DNA of 64,000 nt from a virus. A model generated the notes under the pieces. It did no database searches. It was given only the letters and a program-made list of their open reading frames with translations, and had not been told where the DNA came from. Shown here piece after piece: positions 2,561 through 47,154 of this stretch. The DNA lies in the IMG/VR virus record IMGVR_UViG_3300025870_000008, positions 1 through 64,000 of that record, one strand, 5' to 3'. The translations under genes and the position numbers were made by a program. Numbering within the stretch: the first letter of the stretch is position 1; each line of letters begins with the position of its first letter.

Positions 2561-4876
2561 ATGATTATCGCAGAAAAAACCAAGGAACAAGTAGTACAAT
2601 CTCACGACTTTGAACAAGTCAACTGCACGATAGATGCAGAAGATATGAGATATGTTGCTAGTCTTTTAAGAAACAATTATTCCAACACACAACTTGCAGT
2701 TGTACGTGAGATAAGTGCCAATGCACTCGATGCGAATAAAGAAGCAAATTCTACTCGCCCTATCGAGATCAAGTTGCCAACCAAACTTAATCCCACATTT
2801 AGTGTGCGCGATTTCGGGGGTGGACTTAGCGAGGAAGATGTTTTTGGTCTTTACTCTAAGTATGGTAAGTCAACCAAACGTGAATCTAACAATTACATTG
2901 GCGCGTTCGGTATTGGCAAGTTTGCTCCATTATCTTATGGTGACAACTTTACTTGTGTTTCTTATCATGGTGGAATAAAGAAATCTTACAATGTATTTGT
3001 CAATGATGATGACGATACAAAGATTGCAAAGTTGTTTGAAGAACCAAGCAACGAACCAACAGGTTTATCTATTGAAGTTGCAGTTGCAGATAGTGACTTA
3101 ACTAATTTCAGAGGAATTGTAATGAAGTTCTTTCGTTTCTTTGACGATTCAGAAATGCCAAAGTTTATTGGTTTTGAGGAAAACGAGGCGGTTGTCAAGC
3201 CTAAAAATTCCCTTGAGAGCGATAAAGGTAATTGGTTTGTAACTGAAGATGATGGTGGACACAATTATTATTACAATAGTAAAGCTCATATTGTTATGGG
3301 TAGAGTTGTATATCCTCTTGATCCCGAAGCGATAAATGTAGACAATTTCATTTCAAATGAAAAATCATGTCGCATTGTTAAGGAAATGATTAAAGAAGGT
3401 AATTTCTATCTTCGTATGCCAATCGGTTCTATTAAACTTCACCACTCACGTGAAGCATTAGAATACAATAAGTCAACACAAAAAGCATTGTGTCGAGCAT
3501 TGTTTGTGGCAAGTGAAGATATTCTTGAAATTGCCAAGCTCAAACTTGCAGATAGCGCCGACTTATTTGAAGCAAAAGTAAATCATGCTAGAATTGTAAA
3601 TAGTTTGAATCGTTCTTTGCGCAATTTATTTGACAATGCTTTTGAGTGGAATGGTGTAAAAATTAATAATGCTCGATTTAATCGTGATTACGATAGGCAT
3701 GATGATCTTATTCTTACTCAAATGAGCAAAGAAAAAGATGATGATTCTCGCAATGGTTACAGAGTTAAAAGTCAAAAAGTGTCAAGCATATATTGTCAAG
3801 AAGATGGTGTTTTTATGATTCAAAACATTGCTTCTGCTCATGGCAACAATCTACGTGCTAGAACAATTTTCAACGAGAATGAGCATATCAATCAAGTTTA
3901 TGTCATTTATCCTGTTAACGATGAAGGTTGGGATTACATCAATCAAGAGTGGGATTTTAATTTGATTGCAGATGAACACAAGTTATTCTCTGATAATGTA
4001 GAGAAAGAAAAACTTGTTCGCAATAAAGTTAGCAATGGTGCTAGTCGCGCATCAATTCCATTATTCAAAATGAAGCACGATACTAGGCATCTTTATCGCA
4101 ATGCAGATTATTGGGCAAATTGCAACGATCCAATCAATTCATTGGAAGCAGGTGAGATCGAAGGTTCAGTAGAAGGTAAACTTATATATGTTCCAATCAC
4201 TCGTTTTACTATTGACCAAGATTTGGTTGAAGGTTGGGATTTAGATAGAGTTGCTTCAACTGCAAAGTTTATTCGTAAGGAAGCTGAAGAAGATTCTGAG
4301 TTAAGTAAATTTACCATCATGGGTGTTCGCAAGGGTGATGTAAAGAAACTTGGTGATAATTGGATTTCTTGGCTTGACTTTTTATTAGATCACTACAAGC
4401 AAATCATTGAGGACAATATGGCAGATATGACTGATTGCTACATCAGAAACTCTATTAGTAGTGCAGAACATGAAAAAACCACTAAAATTGTAGATATATT
4501 AAATGCTCATCATGGCATTTTAACTTGCGACCAAATTGATTGGAGTAAATTTGCAGACGATCATTTGCTTCTTACTACACGTTCGTACAAACGTGTTATG
4601 GATTCCGCTAGAATCGACAATCATTACAATAAACTCAAGTTTGTTGCTCATCACGATGCAAAATGGTTGGAAGAAAAATTCAGTTCAGTAAAAGTTGACA
4701 TTGATAGCGTTGTTTCTAATGCAGAAAAATTTGTATCAAATTACCCTCATCTTTCGATGCTTAATGATGCTTACCATAATTACAACAAACGTCAGCACCA
4801 CACACATGGTGACATGACAACCAAAATTCAAGATTATATTTCCTTGTGTGATAATCAAAAGGAAGAGGGGGAGTGA
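2561..4876 (+). CDS. rIIA: rIIA-like GHKL-fold ATPase protein
   Basis: A 771-residue protein with an N-terminal GHKL (Bergerat) ATP-binding fold. Visible motifs are the N box E50-x3-N54-x2-D57, the G1 box D84-F-G-G-G88 and the G2 box GAFGIGK near 114-120. T4 rIIA has this architecture and similar size. Together with rIIB it acts at the host membrane in the rapid-lysis and exclusion phenotypes, though its biochemistry is poorly known. The next gene is rIIB-like, which supports the call. Own TTGACA promoter and AGGA Shine-Dalgarno. The last codons lie in a strong hairpin (4860-4891). Other GHKL ATPases are possible, but the gene pair favours rIIA. Confidence 0.85.
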   Translation: MIIAEKTKEQVVQSHDFEQVNCTIDAEDMRYVASLLRNNYSNTQLAVVREISANALDANKEANSTRPIEIKLPTKLNPTFSVRDFGGGLSEEDVFGLYSKYGKSTKRESNNYIGAFGIGKFAPLSYGDNFTCVSYHGGIKKSYNVFVNDDDDTKIAKLFEEPSNEPTGLSIEVAVADSDLTNFRGIVMKFFRFFDDSEMPKFIGFEENEAVVKPKNSLESDKGNWFVTEDDGGHNYYYNSKAHIVMGRVVYPLDPEAINVDNFISNEKSCRIVKEMIKEGNFYLRMPIGSIKLHHSREALEYNKSTQKALCRALFVASEDILEIAKLKLADSADLFEAKVNHARIVNSLNRSLRNLFDNAFEWNGVKINNARFNRDYDRHDDLILTQMSKEKDDDSRNGYRVKSQKVSSIYCQEDGVFMIQNIASAHGNNLRARTIFNENEHINQVYVIYPVNDEGWDYINQEWDFNLIADEHKLFSDNVEKEKLVRNKVSNGASRASIPLFKMKHDTRHLYRNADYWANCNDPINSLEAGEIEGSVEGKLIYVPITRFTIDQDLVEGWDLDRVASTAKFIRKEAEEDSELSKFTIMGVRKGDVKKLGDNWISWLDFLLDHYKQIIEDNMADMTDCYIRNSISSAEHEKTTKIVDILNAHHGILTCDQIDWSKFADDHLLLTTRSYKRVMDSARIDNHYNKLKFVAHHDAKWLEEKFSSVKVDIDSVVSNAEKFVSNYPHLSMLNDAYHNYNKRQHHTHGDMTTKIQDYISLCDNQKEEGE

Positions 4877-4891
4877 TTGCTCCCTCTTCCT
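4860..4891 (+). terminator. hairpin over the stop codon of the rIIA-like gene
   Basis: AGGAAGAGGG...GAG pairs with CTCCCTCTTCCT across the loop TGATTG, giving a stem of about 12 bp with a 2-nt bulge. The stop codon lies in it. There is no T-tract directly after the stem, so it may be an mRNA 3'-end stabiliser or weak terminator rather than a classical intrinsic terminator. Confidence 0.5.
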
Positions 4892-4909
4892 AATCTTTAA
4901 AAAAAAACA

Positions 4910-4938
4910 TTGACAATACATAGAAAAAATTCTATACT
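4910..4938 (+). promoter_or_regulatory. promoter of the rIIB-like gene
   Basis: TTGACA (4910-4915), a 17-bp spacer and TATACT (4933-4938), close to the sigma-70 consensus. It leaves a leader of about 27 nt with Shine-Dalgarno AGGAGA (4959-4964). Confidence 0.75.
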
Positions 4939-4971
4939 ACTATTATAATAATTAAAACAGGAGAACATAAA

Positions 4972-6174
4972 ATGAGCAACATACCATATATTCTAAGCGA
5001 AAATTCACTTACCATCTTTCTTGATGGTAAACCTCACACACTTCGTAAAGATCATGCGAACTTTCATCTTGCTAGAAAAGCGATTCTCAATGGGGAAACT
5101 GATAAACTTGGTGATCTTGTTGATATTCAACGTGCGGTTGAAGATTTCGTTCAAGGCGACATTGAAGTCAAAGATGAAGTTATTTATTACAAAGGTCATC
5201 GTTTGCATGGTGTTGTGGTAGACAAATTGCTTGAAATGCTTCGTGCAGGTTTAAAAGATTCTGCACCAATCACTAATTTTATTGCACGATTGCAAGCCAA
5301 TCCAAGTGCTAATAGTGTTGCAGAATTGTACACATTCTTGGGGTACAAAAATTTACCAACAACTGCTGAGGGTAAATGCCTTGGTTATAAAGGTGTTCGA
5401 GGTGATTATTGGAGTTCAACAGGTAATGCAGATACCATTGTTGTCCAAGGCGAAACCAATGAACATTATCAAATTCTCAATGAGGTTGATGCAACTATCG
5501 AAGTTGCACGTCGTTGTGTGGATGATAACAAAGACAATCATTGTTCTTTCGGTCTTCATGTTGGTAGTTATGATTATGCCAATGATTGGGCGGGAGAAAA
5601 TGGCAGATTACTTGTTGTAGAGTTTGATCCTGCTGATGCAGTTTCAGTTCCAACTGATTGTGGTTTTCAAAAACTTCGCGTTTCTAAGTATAAGGTGATA
5701 TCTGATATTACTGACACTAGAAAAGAGTTAAATAGACCTGTCTACGAGGCTAATAAGCCTATTTACGGATCAGATACAGATGATGAATTTGTCGATGATG
5801 AAGATTATGATGATTCTGACGATGATTTTGTCGATCAAGATGATTGGAATGACGATCCCGAAGATTCAGAATCTGAAGATAATTGGGTCAAAGTTGATGA
5901 AAATGTATTGGATGAAGACGATGAAGAATTAGATACTTATGATCTTGTAAAACTTTCTGTTGAAAAATACATAAGAAAGAAACATGATAAAGATGTGAAC
6001 CCAACAATCAAAAACATTGCGGATTTAAGAATTTGTAAAGAAAATAGTTTTGGAGTTAAAAGAGTTGTAGAGCTTGTTGGTGAAATTTATGGAGTTAGAT
6101 TGGATAATAGATATGCTTCTAATCTTCTTCCGTTAGGGGCAAAACAAGTTGTGTCTAATGACGTACCTTTTTAA
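4972..6174 (+). CDS. rIIB: rIIB-like protein
   Basis: A 400-residue protein matching the layout of phage rIIB-like proteins. An N-terminal region is followed by a conserved central block with TFLGYKNLPTTAEGKCLGYK, CSFGLHVGSYDYA and LLVVEFDPADAVSVP. Next comes a very acidic linker (about residues 263-325, rich in DD/DE) and a basic C-terminal domain (DLVKLSVEKYIRKKHDKDV onward). It sits directly after the rIIA-like gene, as in T4. Strong Shine-Dalgarno AGGAGA. The long acidic linker is an elaboration, and what the C-terminal domain binds cannot be told. Confidence 0.85.
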   Translation: MSNIPYILSENSLTIFLDGKPHTLRKDHANFHLARKAILNGETDKLGDLVDIQRAVEDFVQGDIEVKDEVIYYKGHRLHGVVVDKLLEMLRAGLKDSAPITNFIARLQANPSANSVAELYTFLGYKNLPTTAEGKCLGYKGVRGDYWSSTGNADTIVVQGETNEHYQILNEVDATIEVARRCVDDNKDNHCSFGLHVGSYDYANDWAGENGRLLVVEFDPADAVSVPTDCGFQKLRVSKYKVISDITDTRKELNRPVYEANKPIYGSDTDDEFVDDEDYDDSDDDFVDQDDWNDDPEDSESEDNWVKVDENVLDEDDEELDTYDLVKLSVEKYIRKKHDKDVNPTIKNIADLRICKENSFGVKRVVELVGEIYGVRLDNRYASNLLPLGAKQVVSNDVPF

Positions 6175-8368: not shown

Positions 8369-8566
8369 ATGAATATCGCAAAATGTGCTCAAGCAACCGC
8401 AATTATGAACAACGTCCGCAATGGAAACTATGTAAGGGGTATGAAGTTTGCAAACTTTGGATCAGTAACAGAAGATAGTTTAATAGCTCAACAAAAAGAA
8501 GCGGACAGAAGATTGCGCGAAATACAAGCATTGCGAGCAAAACAAAAAGTTGCTAAATTTGTATGA
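8369..8566 (+). CDS. hypothetical small basic protein
   Basis: 65 residues, basic C-terminal helix (EADRRLREIQALRAKQKVAK). Leadered promoter and AAAGGA Shine-Dalgarno. The stop overlaps the ATG of the thioredoxin-like gene (ATGA), so the two proteins are made together. Not recognised. Confidence 0.75.
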   Translation: MNIAKCAQATAIMNNVRNGNYVRGMKFANFGSVTEDSLIAQQKEADRRLREIQALRAKQKVAKFV

Positions 8567-9204
8567 AATATTTTATTTTATTTTTAGCTTCGTTTGTTTC
8601 TAGTTATGGAAATAAATTTATGCAACATCTTATTAATCCTTGGTATACAACCCAAGATTTAGATGAAAAAAGAGAAATTGGTAATAAAATTATTAACTTA
8701 ATGCATAAACATAATTATGGCAAAATCGGCAGGGATGGAATTAGATATAATGATGGAGGATGGTCGAAGGCGATCACCCTCAACCTTAGACAATTCGACA
8801 AAATAAATAAACCATTTAATCTAAAACTAAAAACAATAGATGGCAGAGTATACAATACGAAAGATCATTTAGGTAAAATAGTTTTTATTGATTTTTTTGC
8901 CACTTTCTGCAGTCCATGCAAAATAAACACAAATAATCTTATTAAAATAAAAGATAAATACGAAGACGAAGTATCTGTGTTGATAATATCAACAGATAGA
9001 AATAAAAATAATATAATTCAATATCAATCTCAATTAAAACATAAATTTGCAACCCATTTCGACTCAAAAGGTAGAAATAATAAATATAGTAAAGAATGGG
9101 GGGCAACTCTTGGAACTATATATATTATAAATAAAGATGGAACATTGCATGATATACATGGACACAAAAATATTTTTCATAAAGTTGAAAAACTTATACT
9201 ATAA
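8563..9204 (+). CDS. exported thioredoxin-like (TlpA/ResA-type) protein
   Basis: 213 residues. The first about 20 (MKYFILFLASFVSSYGNKF) look like a signal peptide or membrane anchor. A thioredoxin fold of the TlpA/ResA type follows. The redox motif C-S-P-C lies near residue 115, in the FIDFFATFCSPCK context, and is followed by VLIISTDRNKNN and a later TIYIINKDG strand. Members of this family act as disulfide reductants or oxidants outside the cytoplasm. It is translationally coupled to the small basic protein upstream. A phage could use it to change redox state in the envelope or to help fold cysteine-rich proteins. The target is unknown. Confidence 0.8.
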   Translation: MKYFILFLASFVSSYGNKFMQHLINPWYTTQDLDEKREIGNKIINLMHKHNYGKIGRDGIRYNDGGWSKAITLNLRQFDKINKPFNLKLKTIDGRVYNTKDHLGKIVFIDFFATFCSPCKINTNNLIKIKDKYEDEVSVLIISTDRNKNNIIQYQSQLKHKFATHFDSKGRNNKYSKEWGATLGTIYIINKDGTLHDIHGHKNIFHKVEKLIL

Positions 9205-9244: not shown

Positions 9245-9273
9245 TTGACAAATAACCAAATAAATAGTATTAT
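9245..9273 (+). promoter_or_regulatory. promoter of the structured ncRNA
   Basis: TTGACA (9245-9250), a 17-bp spacer and TATTAT (9268-9273). The predicted start is near 9280. No gene follows within 490 nt. Confidence 0.7.
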
Positions 9274-9279
9274 ATATAC

Positions 9280-9743
9280 ATAATCAAAATTGAGAACCAA
9301 ACTCAAGTAAATAAAATAAATTGATCTTTTACATTTTAATTTGAGCCTAGTCTAATCTCGCAAGAGAAGGGAATCATCGTTTAAATGCCTAAGCTAGACT
9401 CAATTCATTTTAATTCCTACAAGTAGCTAACATTAATCTTAGCGGACAAATAAAACTATTTGTAGGAAAACTTTGGAAGGGCTTATAATCCTTCCTGTGG
9501 GTGACTGAAATAACCTGTTGTGAGCGGGTTAAGGTATACGATTCTCTGTGGTGGAGTACCGATGGGCAAATGTCTGAGGTAGGATTTTCCCAATCCAATT
9601 GTAGTACGAGTAGGCACATAATGAACTAATGTTCACACCGAAAGTTGGGAGTATGTAGTAATCTCCCCCCACATCTATTTCTCCTATCCCACCCCTCGCC
9701 CGTTCTCAGTTACTCCTTTTGTGCTGAGAGCGGGCTTTTTATT
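9280..9743 (+). ncRNA. structured non-coding RNA of about 460 nt, unassigned
   Basis: A stretch with no plausible protein, bounded by a consensus promoter and an intrinsic terminator, and visibly richer in G/C than its flanks. Paired segments: TTGAGCCTAG (9341-9350) with CTAGACTCAA (9394-9403), enclosing TCTC-GCAA-GAGA (9356-9367), a GNRA tetraloop hairpin; a 13-nt arm at 9414-9426 with 9456-9468 (one wobble), enclosing CTAA/TTAG; GGAAGG (9475) with CCTTCC (9490); AACCTG (9512) with CGGGTT (9525); GGGAG (9647) with CTCCC (9663). No match to tmRNA, RNase P RNA or group I/II intron core sequences was seen. In size and setting it recalls the large ornate phage RNAs (GOLLD, ROOL). Identity with either is not claimed. 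Confidence 0.75.
9698..9743 (+). terminator. intrinsic terminator of the ncRNA
   Basis: GCCCGTTCTCAG (9698-9709) pairs with CTGAGAGCGGGC (9724-9735) through 12 positions including one G-T wobble, with a 14-nt loop. TTTTTATTT follows. The T-tract runs into the -35 box of the next promoter. Confidence 0.85.
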
Positions 9744-9771
9744 TGACACGGTAGGGAAACTAGACTAGTAT
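9743..9771 (+). promoter_or_regulatory. leaderless-type promoter for the gene at 9778
   Basis: TTGACA (9743-9748), a 17-bp spacer, TAGTAT (9766-9771), then 6 nt to the ATG. Confidence 0.8.
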
Positions 9772-9777
9772 ACCATC

Positions 9778-10068
9778 ATGAATACATTATTAAAGATATT
9801 ATCGAAAGACCAATTTGGTTTTGTTACTAAAAACGACCTTGATATTCTTGAGGAGGAAATGCCTAATTTACCATTACTACTTCGTTTTGGGTGCGGACGC
9901 AAAGTTATTCAGTCGTATCAAGTTCGTGCAGCTGTTGAAAGCACTGAGCGAGACGGCGATTATCTTCGTGATGTTTCTATCGCTAGCCAAACTATAGATG
10001 AGATGGCCAAGTCTCCCTTTATACCTTTTGCTGTTAAACAAGCAATTGAGAATATGAGGTCTTGGTAA
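9778..10068 (+). CDS. hypothetical protein
   Basis: 96 residues, mixed charge, with a likely helical C-terminus (FAVKQAIENMRSW) and a central LLRFGCGRKVIQSYQV. Leaderless-type promoter directly after the ncRNA terminator. No recognised family. Confidence 0.75.
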   Translation: MNTLLKILSKDQFGFVTKNDLDILEEEMPNLPLLLRFGCGRKVIQSYQVRAAVESTERDGDYLRDVSIASQTIDEMAKSPFIPFAVKQAIENMRSW

Positions 10069-10625: not shown

Positions 10626-11027
10626 ATGATTAAGAGAAACCAACACGACCCACGATACATCATCAAGAAGAATCGTCCCGTATATGTTTACAAGAATCTA
10701 CACAAAGATTGTTGGAGCATCAAGCAACATGGTTTAGTTAAGGCTCATATTCCCAGGGGAGAAAGTATTGGGCTTTGGGATTGCTATTTTCATGTTGACA
10801 TCAAGGGTAGAGAAAAGGTTCTTCGTGAGAAGCGTAAGAATGTTCATGCTTTTGTTAAGGGTTATCTTCAGGATGCTGAGAACGTTAACATAGATAAGCC
10901 CGCCACAGAGGTAACCTATAACCCATATAAGTATGAAACTTTTGTTGACAAGAACACCGAGAAGTTTGTATACTATGCAGATGAAGTTTTATTATCACAC
11001 AACCAAGTAACCGCCTATATACCATGA
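10626..11027 (+). CDS. hypothetical basic protein
   Basis: 133 residues, basic and aromatic (RPVYVYKNLHKDCWSIKQHG, then GREKVLREKRKNVHAFVKGY). Its second half reads like a small beta/alpha domain. The start is fixed by the promoter 6 nt upstream and lies 135 bp after the start of boundary element copy 1. The stop overlaps the next ATG. Not recognised. Confidence 0.8.
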   Translation: MIKRNQHDPRYIIKKNRPVYVYKNLHKDCWSIKQHGLVKAHIPRGESIGLWDCYFHVDIKGREKVLREKRKNVHAFVKGYLQDAENVNIDKPATEVTYNPYKYETFVDKNTEKFVYYADEVLLSHNQVTAYIP

Positions 11028-11221
11028 GAATAGAAGAAAGAATGATAGATTATGCCCAAAAGTGGTATAAAGTGAACGACTTAGAGACAGAGAAAAAGAA
11101 CGGATCCGATCTTTATCTTCGTGTCAATGACAATGTATTTACTGAAGTCTCACACTGTGACATCAGACAAAAAGCCATTTTATGGTTGCAATCAGAACTA
11201 GAAGGAGTAATGTATAGTTAA
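11024..11221 (+). CDS. hypothetical small protein
   Basis: 65 residues (MRIEERMIDYAQKWYKVNDL), mixed charge, predicted helix-strand-helix. Coupled to the gene before by ATGA. It ends immediately before the next ATG. Not recognised. Confidence 0.75.
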   Translation: MRIEERMIDYAQKWYKVNDLETEKKNGSDLYLRVNDNVFTEVSHCDIRQKAILWLQSELEGVMYS

Positions 11222-11425
11222 ATGAAAGAAGAATTAAAAGCAATTAGATGTGCCATTGACGGAGTCGCTGACGAGATTTTAGAAGATCGTAGACATGCAA
11301 ACATGGGAGACCTCGTCAAGGCAATGGAGAATATCAGCAGTACTCTCTGCACTATCAGCTATGACTTAAAAGATTTAGTTGAAGCAAAAAAGTTTCAGAA
11401 TGAATTAACGACAGCCTTAAGATAG
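11222..11425 (+). CDS. hypothetical helical protein
   Basis: 67 residues, nearly all predicted helix with heptad-like hydrophobics (MKEELKAIRCAIDGVADEIL, CTISYDLKDLVEAKKF). It could form a small coiled-coil dimer. It directly abuts the preceding stop, closes its unit and is followed by boundary element copy 2. Confidence 0.75.
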   Translation: MKEELKAIRCAIDGVADEILEDRRHANMGDLVKAMENISSTLCTISYDLKDLVEAKKFQNELTTALR

Positions 11426-35849: not shown

Positions 35850-36902
35850 ATGAGTGTTAAAAAAGTTTTCATAAGTGGAATTACTGGTCAAGATGGAAGT
35901 AATATGTGCGATTATTTATTGCAAAATCATGATTTAGAAATCTTTGGCGGTATACGAAGGATAAGTGTTAAAAACTATAAAAATATTAAACACTTAAAAG
36001 ATAACCCCAAAATAGAACTTGTAAATTTTGATTTAAGTGATCCTTATAGTATTAGAAATGCTATAGAAAATATTAAACCAGATTACTTTATAAATTTTGC
36101 GGCTCAATCTTTCGTGCAGTCTAGTTGGGATTTCCCAATTCAAACTATGACTGATAATGCGGTCAGTATTACTCATATGTTAGAGTCGATAAGGTTGTTC
36201 GCTCCTAAGTGTAGATTTTATAATGCAGGATCTTCCGAAGAGTTTGGCGATGTAATTTCAGAGATGCAAGACGAAGAGCATCCATTAAGACCGCAATCTC
36301 CTTATGGAGCTTCTAAATGTGCCGCGAGGCATATTGTTAGAGTGTACAGAGAATCTTATGACCTTTATGCTATACAAGGTTGGCTATTCAACCACGAGGG
36401 AAGCCGAAGAGGAACAGAGTTTGTAACAAGAAAAATCAGTAAAAATATAGCTAAATTTGTTTTTGACTTAGAGAATGGAGAAGATCCCAAACACCTAGAA
36501 CTAGGCAATCTTGACGCGTTAAGAGATTGGACTGATTCTATTGACTTCATGTCGGGAGTATGGTTAATGCTAAACCAGAAAGCAGACCCTAAGGAGTATG
36601 TCCTAGCAAGTGGAAAAACATATTCCATAAGAACTTTTCTAGAAGAAACTTTAAAACATGCAAAAATAAACTTTAAAACAGAAGGGGAAGGTTTAGAAGA
36701 AAAATATTACACTTCAGACGGAAAATTAATTGTATCTATTAATCCAGTATTTTATAGACATGCTGAAGTTAAACTTTTATGCGGAAACCCTAAAAAGGCT
36801 GAAAAAGAATTGGGTTGGAGAAGAAAAATTAAATTTAAACAGTTAGTTCGAAAGATGTTTGATAGTGATTATAACTTTTTTAAAAATAGGTGTATATATT
36901 AA
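35850..36902 (+). CDS. gmd: GDP-mannose 4,6-dehydratase
   Basis: 350 residues, the normal length for GMD, a short-chain dehydrogenase-fold enzyme. It converts GDP-D-mannose to GDP-4-keto-6-deoxymannose, the precursor of GDP-fucose, rhamnose and perosamine. NADP-binding ISGITGQDGSN at residues 8-18, the S-S-E-E catalytic region near 126-130, and Y152-x3-K156 (SPYGASKCA). RDWTDSIDFM is also typical of GMD. It lies without gap between two head genes, so it is a metabolic gene inserted into the morphogenesis operon. Likely used to decorate virion or host glycans. No downstream epimerase/reductase is visible. Confidence 0.92.
   Translation: MSVKKVFISGITGQDGSNMCDYLLQNHDLEIFGGIRRISVKNYKNIKHLKDNPKIELVNFDLSDPYSIRNAIENIKPDYFINFAAQSFVQSSWDFPIQTMTDNAVSITHMLESIRLFAPKCRFYNAGSSEEFGDVISEMQDEEHPLRPQSPYGASKCAARHIVRVYRESYDLYAIQGWLFNHEGSRRGTEFVTRKISKNIAKFVFDLENGEDPKHLELGNLDALRDWTDSIDFMSGVWLMLNQKADPKEYVLASGKTYSIRTFLEETLKHAKINFKTEGEGLEEKYYTSDGKLIVSINPVFYRHAEVKLLCGNPKKAEKELGWRRKIKFKQLVRKMFDSDYNFFKNRCIY
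36890..36894 (+). promoter_or_regulatory. candidate late promoter motif before the protease-scaffold gene
   Basis: GGTGTATATATTAATA in the last codons of gmd, 11 nt before the next ATG. Confidence 0.35.
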
Positions 36903-40887: not shown

Positions 40888-42774
40888 ATGTCAGGGTGCA
40901 ATAATAGTCAAATACCCGTAATTGCAAAAAAAATATTTGATTCTGAATTTTACGATCAATTTGACGAAACAGATAGCAATTACGAAAAATCCGTAGCCAA
41001 TTTTCTGTTAAGAATTGAAGCTTGGTTAGAAACGAATATTGGACAGCTTAATATACTTATTCATTCTGGATATAGAGTAACTCATAGCGAGCATATTTGC
41101 CCACAGATAAACCCAGAAGAGATAGCTATTTTCATACAGCTATACTTAAAGGAGTACTATAAGAGACAAGCCCACAATTCTTTAAAGAATGTGAGCTCAA
41201 GTTCTACGAAAACTACATCTGGAGAATCTACTGTCTTTATGACGGATTGGGTGGAATTACGCGAAGGAGATTCTTCAATAAAAAGACAATCTTTAATATC
41301 TACGCCGCAGCAAAAAATACAAGCTGCTCAAGCATTTAAAGGTATTTCTCAAGATGCTAACATAAAGCTTCAGGAGATGGTTCAGTATTATAATTTGCAT
41401 AAAGCTTTACCCAGGCAAGTTGTTGCTAGGTATACAGGAGATTCTGATTGTAGTCAAAAACCAAACGGTTGTGATGAGCAAATAAACTCGTGCCCCCCAG
41501 AGGTAACCCCGACGATAACTTATACAATCATATCAACGCCTACAACAACTAAAACCGCTACAGTTACCGAAACGGCTACAATCACACCAACTGATACAGT
41601 CACAAAAACGGCTACGATCACTAAAACTGCTACAATTACCCCAACAACTACAGCTACCGAAACGGCTACAGTTACCGAAACAGCTACGGCTACCGAAACA
41701 GCTACGGCTACCGAAACAGCTACGGCTACCGAAACAGCTACGGCTACCGAAACAGCTACGGCTACCGAAACAGCTACAGCTACTGAAACCATTACAGCAA
41801 CGGAGACAACTACGACTACCGAAACCATTACAGCAACGGAGACAACTACGACTACCGAAACCATTACAGCAACGGAGACAACTACGACTACCGAAACAGC
41901 TACAGCGACCGAAACGGCTACGATCACACCAACTGCTACAGTCACGCCGACACTTACAATAACTAAAACAACAACCCATACTTCAACTTTTGATGAATGC
42001 TGTGGTGAGGTAAACAATTTAATAGACATCGTTAACACTAGTGATATAGTAGAAAGCGATAGAAGAACTGGAGAAGAAATATTAATTCAAGATATATCAA
42101 ATCTAATGCGAGATTCCTCTGTTTGTATTGGTAGAGTATCAGAATCAGTAGACCTTAAAACGGTAAATATTAAAGTAGGAAATGTAGATCCAACAAAAGA
42201 ATTTTCCTTGGCTACAGTAAAATTCGAAGGAGATCTTAATAATCAAACAATTTTTATTAAAAAGAGGTATGGAGATGTAAACTCTGGCGTAGACCCAGTA
42301 GATCAATTTTTTAGTACAGAGTCCACCCCTACAGAAACCAATAATCCATGTGGCTATGGATATTGTGTAGAGTATACCCCTTGTCAAGAAGGAGATGTTG
42401 ACCCGTCAAAATGTATTGACAGATTAGTTTGTAGTAGAGCTCTAGACATTGCAAATGTGCATATTGCTTTCAGACCTGGGCAAATCCCTCCTGAAGTTTT
42501 CGTAGATGTGGGAAGATGTTATCGCAAAGTAGGAGAGTCTCAAGCTAAAGATTGTAGTTTCTTTATTGATGACAATACAGACTGCGGAGGAACTGGAGAT
42601 AAATTTTTAAATGAAACAGAATTTAATAAAAATTTTGTTAAAAAACTAAATGATACCGTAGCTATCGCAGATGATTGCAATCAATGTTGTGCGTGCTCTC
42701 AGGATACGACATGTTTTAGTTGCGATATACAGTGGTCTGGAAACTCTGGAGATTGTGACGTCTCGAACTCTTGA
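40888..42774 (+). CDS. virion protein with long Thr-rich tandem repeat and Cys-rich C-terminus
   Basis: 628 residues. An N-terminal helical domain of about 170 residues (ANFLLRIEAWLETNIGQLNI) is followed by about 180 residues of T/A/E repeat, units of TATATE and TTTTTETITATE. The underlying DNA repeats (18-bp GCTACCGAAACAGCTACG units, then 36-bp units) lie at about 41520-41970. A beta-rich, cysteine-rich domain (CCGEV, then CQCCACSQDTTCFSC at the end) follows. Located among connector genes. The repeat probably forms an extended stalk on the virion. Repeat number may vary between isolates. Confidence 0.8.
   Translation: MSGCNNSQIPVIAKKIFDSEFYDQFDETDSNYEKSVANFLLRIEAWLETNIGQLNILIHSGYRVTHSEHICPQINPEEIAIFIQLYLKEYYKRQAHNSLKNVSSSSTKTTSGESTVFMTDWVELREGDSSIKRQSLISTPQQKIQAAQAFKGISQDANIKLQEMVQYYNLHKALPRQVVARYTGDSDCSQKPNGCDEQINSCPPEVTPTITYTIISTPTTTKTATVTETATITPTDTVTKTATITKTATITPTTTATETATVTETATATETATATETATATETATATETATATETATATETITATETTTTTETITATETTTTTETITATETTTTTETATATETATITPTATVTPTLTITKTTTHTSTFDECCGEVNNLIDIVNTSDIVESDRRTGEEILIQDISNLMRDSSVCIGRVSESVDLKTVNIKVGNVDPTKEFSLATVKFEGDLNNQTIFIKKRYGDVNSGVDPVDQFFSTESTPTETNNPCGYGYCVEYTPCQEGDVDPSKCIDRLVCSRALDIANVHIAFRPGQIPPEVFVDVGRCYRKVGESQAKDCSFFIDDNTDCGGTGDKFLNETEFNKNFVKKLNDTVAIADDCNQCCACSQDTTCFSCDIQWSGNSGDCDVSNS
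41680..41910 (+). repeat. in-frame tandem repeats coding for the Thr-rich stalk
   Basis: First six near-identical 18-bp units (GCTACGGCTACCGAAACA and close forms), then three 36-bp units built on ACCATTACAGCAACGGAG. All units are multiples of three, so copy-number changes keep the frame. Confidence 0.9.
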
Positions 42775-46431: not shown

Positions 46432-47154
46432 ATGGCTAAAATTTGTTTTAAAAGTAAATCAATTTTTTTTCATGTTCCTAAAAATGCGGGAACATCACTG
46501 ACTGTATTTTTCGGTCGGTGTGGGTGGAATACATTTCGGTATTCTCCGATAGATGGACCTTCTGACACAATAAGTCCTGATTATAAATACTCGAAAGGTT
46601 GCTGTATTAGAGTTCGGGAAAACATGAAACAAATTGCAGCTCATAATGATTTAGAGAGAGAGCAGGGTAAAACTATCCCATACTTTGTAAAAAATATGAA
46701 TTCATCAGAACTTCAAATGGTAAAAAAAATCGACCATAATACTTGGGGTGATTTTTATAAATTTGCTTTTGTAAGAAACCCTTGGGATAGATTAATTTCG
46801 GCTTGGAAAAATAGAGTAACAAGCATACCCACTTTTGAAAAGTTTCTTGACTGTTTACCATTTGATAAAAGATTAACAGATATTTATTGGCATACTATGC
46901 CCCAGTATGATCATTTGTACGACGAACAAGGAAAACGATTGGTGCAAGATATATTTAAGTATGAAGAACTTGATGTGTATATGGACCACATTAAGTTAAA
47001 ATTAGCATTGCCAGATTTTTCTATTGATAAAAAATGGAATTCAAGCGGAGCAAGAAAGCGTTACTCAGAATATTATACTAAAACTGAACAAATTGAAAAA
47101 GTAGCAAAAATTTACGAAAAGGATATAAATCAATTTAATTATAAATACAGGTAA
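46432..47154 (+). CDS. sulfotransferase family protein
   Basis: 240 residues with both PAPS-binding elements of the carbohydrate sulfotransferase (Sulfotransfer_2-type) fold. The 5'-phosphosulfate loop is FHVPKNAGTSLT (residues 13-24) and the 3'-phosphate motif is FAFVRNPWDRLISAW (about 111-125). The C-terminal YTKTEQIEKVAKIYEKDINQ then FNYKY is also typical. Such enzymes move sulfate from PAPS to glycans or other hydroxyls. It lies alone among tail genes and may modify virion or host-surface glycans. With gmd it makes a second sugar-modifying gene in the structural block. Confidence 0.9.
   Translation: MAKICFKSKSIFFHVPKNAGTSLTVFFGRCGWNTFRYSPIDGPSDTISPDYKYSKGCCIRVRENMKQIAAHNDLEREQGKTIPYFVKNMNSSELQMVKKIDHNTWGDFYKFAFVRNPWDRLISAWKNRVTSIPTFEKFLDCLPFDKRLTDIYWHTMPQYDHLYDEQGKRLVQDIFKYEELDVYMDHIKLKLALPDFSIDKKWNSSGARKRYSEYYTKTEQIEKVAKIYEKDINQFNYKYR

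Follow-up and report, generated by a model that had tools for sequence, protein, structure and literature searches.

The window, a 64,000-nt stretch of DNA, is part of an 80.8-kb record of a marine virus of bacteria, which encodes a T4-type terminase, PhoH, rIIA/rIIB-like genes and a GDP-mannose dehydratase. Between ORFs at 8563-9204 and 9778-10068 lies a gap that holds no sense ORF, the sole ORF within it being antisense and 69 aa long. An initial annotation, made from the sequence alone, had assigned to this gene-free region (9245-9743) an orphan RNA, strongly structured and about 460 nt long, that is flanked by a promoter and a terminator of its own. All of the elements that it listed are present, and the features of the locus are as follows.

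9245..9273, + strand: sigma-70-type promoter of the RNA gene, TTGACA-17-TATTAT (11/12 consensus positions; equivalents in relatives)
9290..9306, + strand: boxB-like leader hairpin UUGAG-AACCAAA-CUCAA (in about 12 relatives the equivalent hairpin forms an H-type pseudoknot)
9321..9339, + strand: candidate boxA-like antitermination element TTGATCTTTTACATTTTAA, with its core GATCTTTTACA at 9323-9333 (conserved in leaders)
9341..9403, + strand: accessory cassette A, a closed hairpin domain with a GCAA tetraloop (common to the window, L002 and L074 only)
9414..9468, + strand: accessory cassette B, a 13-bp hairpin (only in the window's virus)
9475..9677, + strand: manA RNA core (RF01745), helices P1-P5 (Rfam match; 204 bits with our own model, R1; covariation)
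9497..9501, + strand: closing pseudoknot, 5' strand GUGGG (Rfam model, alignment, covariation)
9668..9672, + strand: closing pseudoknot, 3' strand CCCAC (Rfam model, alignment, covariation)
9698..9744, + strand: intrinsic terminator, 12-position stem and U tract (-24.6 kcal/mol)
9743..9771, + strand: separate promoter of the next gene (ORF 9778-10068), TTGACA-17-TAGTAT, directly behind the terminator

From the first promoter, which carries the boxes and spacing originally proposed, transcription of the RNA gene would be expected to start at about position 9280. The GNRA hairpin UCUC-GCAA-GAGA was found inside the UUGAGCCUAG/CUAGACUCAA stem at 9341-9403, as described, and the 13-nt stem at 9414-9426/9456-9468 (-15.7 kcal/mol, z -4.9). 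The terminator hairpin has the 12 positions and T-tract ascribed to it, with the stem GCCCGUUCUCAG/CUGAGAGCGGGC followed by UUUUU and a z of -5.65 for most of the hairpin; a simple terminator scan did not flag it because that scan admits loops of 3-8 only and the loop here is larger. Folding of the 466-nt stretch as a whole gives a z of -2.9 against shuffles, with one of 100 shuffles as good, and it is the recurrence of the architecture in homologues together with covariation of the stems that places the stretch above chance.

The manA core and its relatives

The description of the RNA as an orphan does not hold, since its 3' half is a full-length member of the Rfam manA family (RF01745), matching positions 1-192 of the 192-position model with 77.8 bits (cut-off 55.2, E 4.5e-18). 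This is the single Rfam match in the whole 64-kb window at the gathering threshold, and within 9245-9743 nothing besides manA was matched at E up to 5, the accessory cassettes included. At those same thresholds GOLLD and ROOL, with which the initial annotation had claimed no sequence match, are without a hit, and its failure to recognise a tmRNA, RNase P RNA or intron core is borne out, as neither the Rfam models nor ARAGORN returned a tmRNA, RNase P RNA, group I or II intron or 6S RNA. A coding explanation was also rejected: the alignment of homologues is full of 1-2 nt indels, with which a conserved reading frame does not fit.

Relatives were gathered with degenerate sequence patterns and comprise about 75 related manA-bearing virus fragments (numbered with an L), including 31 loci with classic viral manA RNAs or near relatives and about 45 viral loci of a divergent clade to which the window belongs. 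L011 is identical to the window (100%) over 10.4 kb, is thus the same virus and is not counted as independent. An Rfam scan of 18 further divergent loci found the complete RNA in 17, with scores of 76-93 bits; the remaining one, L075, was not listed, yet scores 175 bits with model R1. The divergent clade as a whole scores 76-93 bits with Rfam, against 118-187 bits for cyanophage copies. R1, which was built from the divergent clade alone, detects the classic RNAs with 34-62 bits (E about 1e-9 to 1e-19), so that the two clades recognise each other. Matches to manA occur in 47 records of the phage collection searched, some of them duplicate entries, and the isolates P-HM2, P-SSM2 and P-SSM4 carry the RNA. 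Direct DNA similarity to sequenced phages was not found, and a search of 84,980 bacterial species genomes with the clade pattern gave six matches, all of them chance occurrences without the rest of manA.

The homologues keep the stems through compensatory changes. In a MAFFT alignment of 35 divergent cores, which was not fitted to any structure, the manA structure is paired in 93.2% of cells as against 84.0% in shuffles, and 28 pairs show changes on both sides. The covariation score is 0.335 versus 0.157 for shuffled alignments, and when partners are slid by one, 51% of cells or less are paired and the score falls to 0.11 or less. With the classic copies included (90 sequences) the score is 0.535 versus 0.148, in an alignment that was fitted to the model and is biased towards it. 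Helices P1-P5 of the family model are kept by covariation in the divergent clade, and nearly all of the helices show compensatory changes; support is weak for P3c and for the outer stem of P4 (58-83% of cells paired). The closing pseudoknot GUGGG/CCCAC pairs in 35/35 rows and does not vary inside the divergent clade, and because GUGGG belonged to the search pattern for that clade, support for the pseudoknot comes from the change relative to the classic copies, where it is invariantly GGGAG/CUCCC.

Promoters, leaders and terminators of manA units

The transcription unit predicted in the window recurs across the divergent clade. Leaving aside truncated loci and duplicates, as well as the promoter rows of L064 and L077 (truncated-locus artefacts), about 26 of 36 divergent leaders (~74%) match a promoter at 11 or 12 of 12 positions, compared with 1.8% of dinucleotide shuffles, and the boxA-like motif is found in 34/36 compared with 2.0% of shuffles, although the relatives share ancestry and the recurrence of these motifs is thus not fully independent. 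A terminator, defined as a hairpin of -14 kcal/mol or better with a U tract within 160 nt of the core, follows 26/35 divergent copies but only 6/170 random sites (3.5%). It lies farther downstream in L045, L063 and L064, and narrowly misses the thresholds in L039 and L080; three of the 35 (L002, L016 and L057) have no terminator and instead an ORF start within about 30 nt. The terminators of different phages have largely unrelated sequences; what is conserved is thus the property and not the sequence. The next gene is often of one family in the divergent clade (22/39 loci).

Within the divergent leader the order is hairpin, A-rich linker, TTGATCTTTAACATTTTAA and then the core. In rRNA operons, boxA recruits NusB-S10 and protects RNA polymerase from Rho on untranslated RNA. 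For recruitment of the rRNA antitermination complex, boxA is enough by itself (PMC10250234). The core in the window, GATCTTTTACA, has two mismatches to the gammaproteobacterial boxA consensus GYTCTTTAANA (PMC5725501), and several relatives (L059, L062, L066 and L068) match it exactly with GTTCTTTAATA. Across the viral record the boxA core, which is short, shows no enrichment, with 16 matches as against 20 for the reversed pattern. The rRNA boxA pattern TTGATCTTTAACATTTT, used to look for a host rRNA leader, gave one match, away from any rRNA, in 289 Roseovarius-class genomes and none in 274 Pseudomonas-class genomes.

Just upstream of the boxA-like motif, about 12 loci (L059, L060, L062, L065-L069, L073, L080, L081 and L043) carry a covarying H-type pseudoknot, in which the hairpin loop pairs with the strand ahead of boxA through compensatory pairs such as GGAU/AUCC, GAGGC/GCCUC, GGGU/ACCC, GGGGC/GCCCC, GGGC/GCCC and AAGCU/AGCUU. 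It was not seen in the window's copy. A preQ1-like or other known riboswitch was considered for this element and rejected, the L068 stretch matching only manA in Rfam and the rest being noise. Directly 3' of the boxA-like motif is a slot that holds only a 10-11 nt spacer in about 20 loci and, in the remaining loci, self-closed hairpin domains of 50-210 nt that belong to at least ten unrelated sequence families.

Among the classic cyanophage copies, a promoter pattern that would place the start at P1 precedes 30 of the 31 outside tRNA arrays, and the remaining copy, L020, scores 11/12. In 16/31 a terminator-like element just upstream of the RNA, which would stop transcription coming from upstream, contains the -35 box within its hairpin. 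In this composite element, seen for example in L094, L097 and L009, TTGACA occupies the loop and 3' arm of the hairpin (AAGAGGGTGCTTGACACCCTCTT and a T run), with TATAAT following. Behind the classic core, a run of at least five U within 14 nt is found in 15/31, and four copies pass a relaxed terminator test. Among 16 annotated isolates the downstream neighbours are unrelated (talC, gp32, purL, a carbamoyltransferase, small hypotheticals, an opposite-strand gene and tRNA-Gly); in several classic copies gp32 or talC follows at a distance of 40-80 nt. In four loci manA sits inside a tRNA array, flush with the tRNA genes:

L001, 12434-12634: manA inside a tRNA array
L012, 1934-2131: manA inside a tRNA array
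L017, 4558-4754: manA inside a tRNA array
L022, 2686-2886: manA inside a tRNA array

In these, tRNA genes (tRNA-Thr/Ala/Asn) are found within about 1-12 nt on both sides and the position in the array differs, and in S-SSM7 manA abuts tRNA-Gly. The 5' and 3' ends of the RNA as given by covariation, promoter position and flanking tRNAs nearly coincide. In L017 a cyanobacterial-type tmRNA / permuted tmRNA match adjoins manA. Hypothetical proteins annotated across manA in the cyanophage records L091, L093, L094, L095 and L100 (e.g. YP_004030778.1 and YP_004322546.1) are probably misannotated RNA.

A free-standing RNA gene or a cis-regulator

We consider it likely that the window carries a manA-family noncoding RNA gene that stands by itself, neither a riboswitch leader nor an orphan. 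Since 2010 the family has appeared in catalogues as a probable riboswitch, and annotation in phage papers such as that on S-CREM1 (PMC9964418) still calls it cis-regulatory. In the window and in the related fragments, however, it looks like an independent RNA, which the cis-regulatory label does not fit; the label is probably wrong. A cis-regulator would be part of the 5' UTR and of the transcript of its target gene, and in the window the terminator at 9698-9744 and a new promoter from 9743 intervene between the RNA and the gene that it would then control, ORF 9778-10068.

That manA is nevertheless a riboswitch or cis-regulator of the downstream gene is the reading of Rfam, which catalogues its type as Cis-reg (a label that is not part of the family model), and of Weinberg et al. 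(2010; PMC2864571), who found it often in the 5'-UTR of mannose/fructose, nucleotide, ibpA and photosynthesis genes. The ORFs directly downstream in L002, L016 and L057 favour it as well, and with the classic copies near gp32 and talC mean that manA may have a cis effect in some phages. The recurrence of one gene family behind the RNA in the divergent clade also counts against a free-standing gene. As a general account we regard it as unlikely, given that terminators of largely unrelated sequence recur in most divergent copies and that the neighbours in the isolates are unrelated to one another, one lying on the opposite strand and some being tRNAs. Still harder to sustain is a decoy function as the RNA's main task, by which an abundant boxA leader would titrate host NusB-S10 and weaken rRNA synthesis while the core merely stabilises it: the strong promoter and the conserved boxA-like site close to the 5' end of divergent leaders would suit such a role, but classic cyanophage manA would start at P1, with no space for a boxA leader, and both clades have kept the core. 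That the stretch is an intergenic region without function, in which hairpins happen to follow one another by chance, would accord with its moderate folding z as a whole; this is refuted by the compensatory changes that nearly all helices show, and with the Rfam match and the conserved promoter and terminator against it as well we give it practically no credence.

According to the model that we favour for the free-standing gene, host RNA polymerase with the housekeeping sigma factor would initiate at about 9280 and make the leader first, with its hairpin and boxA-like site. By analogy with rRNA operons, the latter would recruit NusB-S10 and shield the polymerase from Rho while it passes the two accessory hairpin domains and then the manA core, the ends of which would be tied by the pseudoknot. 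Transcription would halt at the intrinsic terminator, the next gene using its own promoter. The product, probably a stable folded molecule or an RNA-protein particle, would then act in trans in the infected cell. More tentatively, and with somewhat less than even confidence, we suggest that manA is a widespread, independent class of phage noncoding RNA built like a miniature rRNA operon, the divergent clade combining a leader for Nus-type antitermination with a slot in which varied RNA domains dock, and the cyanophages a bare core that starts at P1 or is released from tRNA arrays, with action in trans on the host gene-expression machinery.

With the manA family as described in 2010, the window copy shares the full-length model match, the same helices and closing pseudoknot and the conserved loops GUGACUGAA, GGUGGUG and GUAU..AGUAAUC; it differs from that riboswitch candidate in standing as a transcription unit of its own, in which a boxA-like leader comes first, accessory domains are inserted and a terminator follows the core. 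As in the boxB-boxA-boxC leader of rRNA operons, which serves Nus antitermination, a hairpin and then a boxA-like UCUUUAACA stand between the promoter and a long untranslated RNA, whereas the window leader is phage-borne, precedes manA instead of 16S rRNA and has a putative role in antitermination. GOLLD and ROOL are likewise ornate noncoding RNAs of phages and bacteria, but the manA core, at about 200 nt, is related to them in neither sequence nor structure model. The wcaG, manA and abiF RNAs of S-CREM1 are no more than about 0.8 kb apart (PMC9964418, Table 4), which suggests that cyanophages have clusters of structured RNAs; phage manA there too stands beside other structured RNAs, although it is of the classic cyanophage type and was described as cis-regulatory.

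If manA is a gene in its own right, efforts to find its ligand are misdirected, and a trans-acting function is needed for an RNA that is among the common structured RNAs of marine cyanophages. With a boxA-like leader on a noncoding RNA of a phage, the reach of Nus antitermination would go beyond operons of the rRNA and lambda types.

Some further observations concern the virus and its kin. The rIIA- and rIIB-like genes (window 2561-6174) lie a few kb upstream of the RNA gene, amid many small genes. A GDP-mannose 4,6-dehydratase (35850-36902) and a sulfotransferase (46432-47154), possibly with functions in sugar modification, are found among structural genes. The protein encoded at 40888-42774 has a long Thr/Ala/Glu-rich repeat (TATETATATETA...), the antisense strand of which yields long spurious ORFs. 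Finally, L016, a close relative of the window's virus, encodes at 10941-11374 a tmRNA with an unusually long tag (GAKKHVRALGFKNRIAAKRFGYKSRKLALAA).
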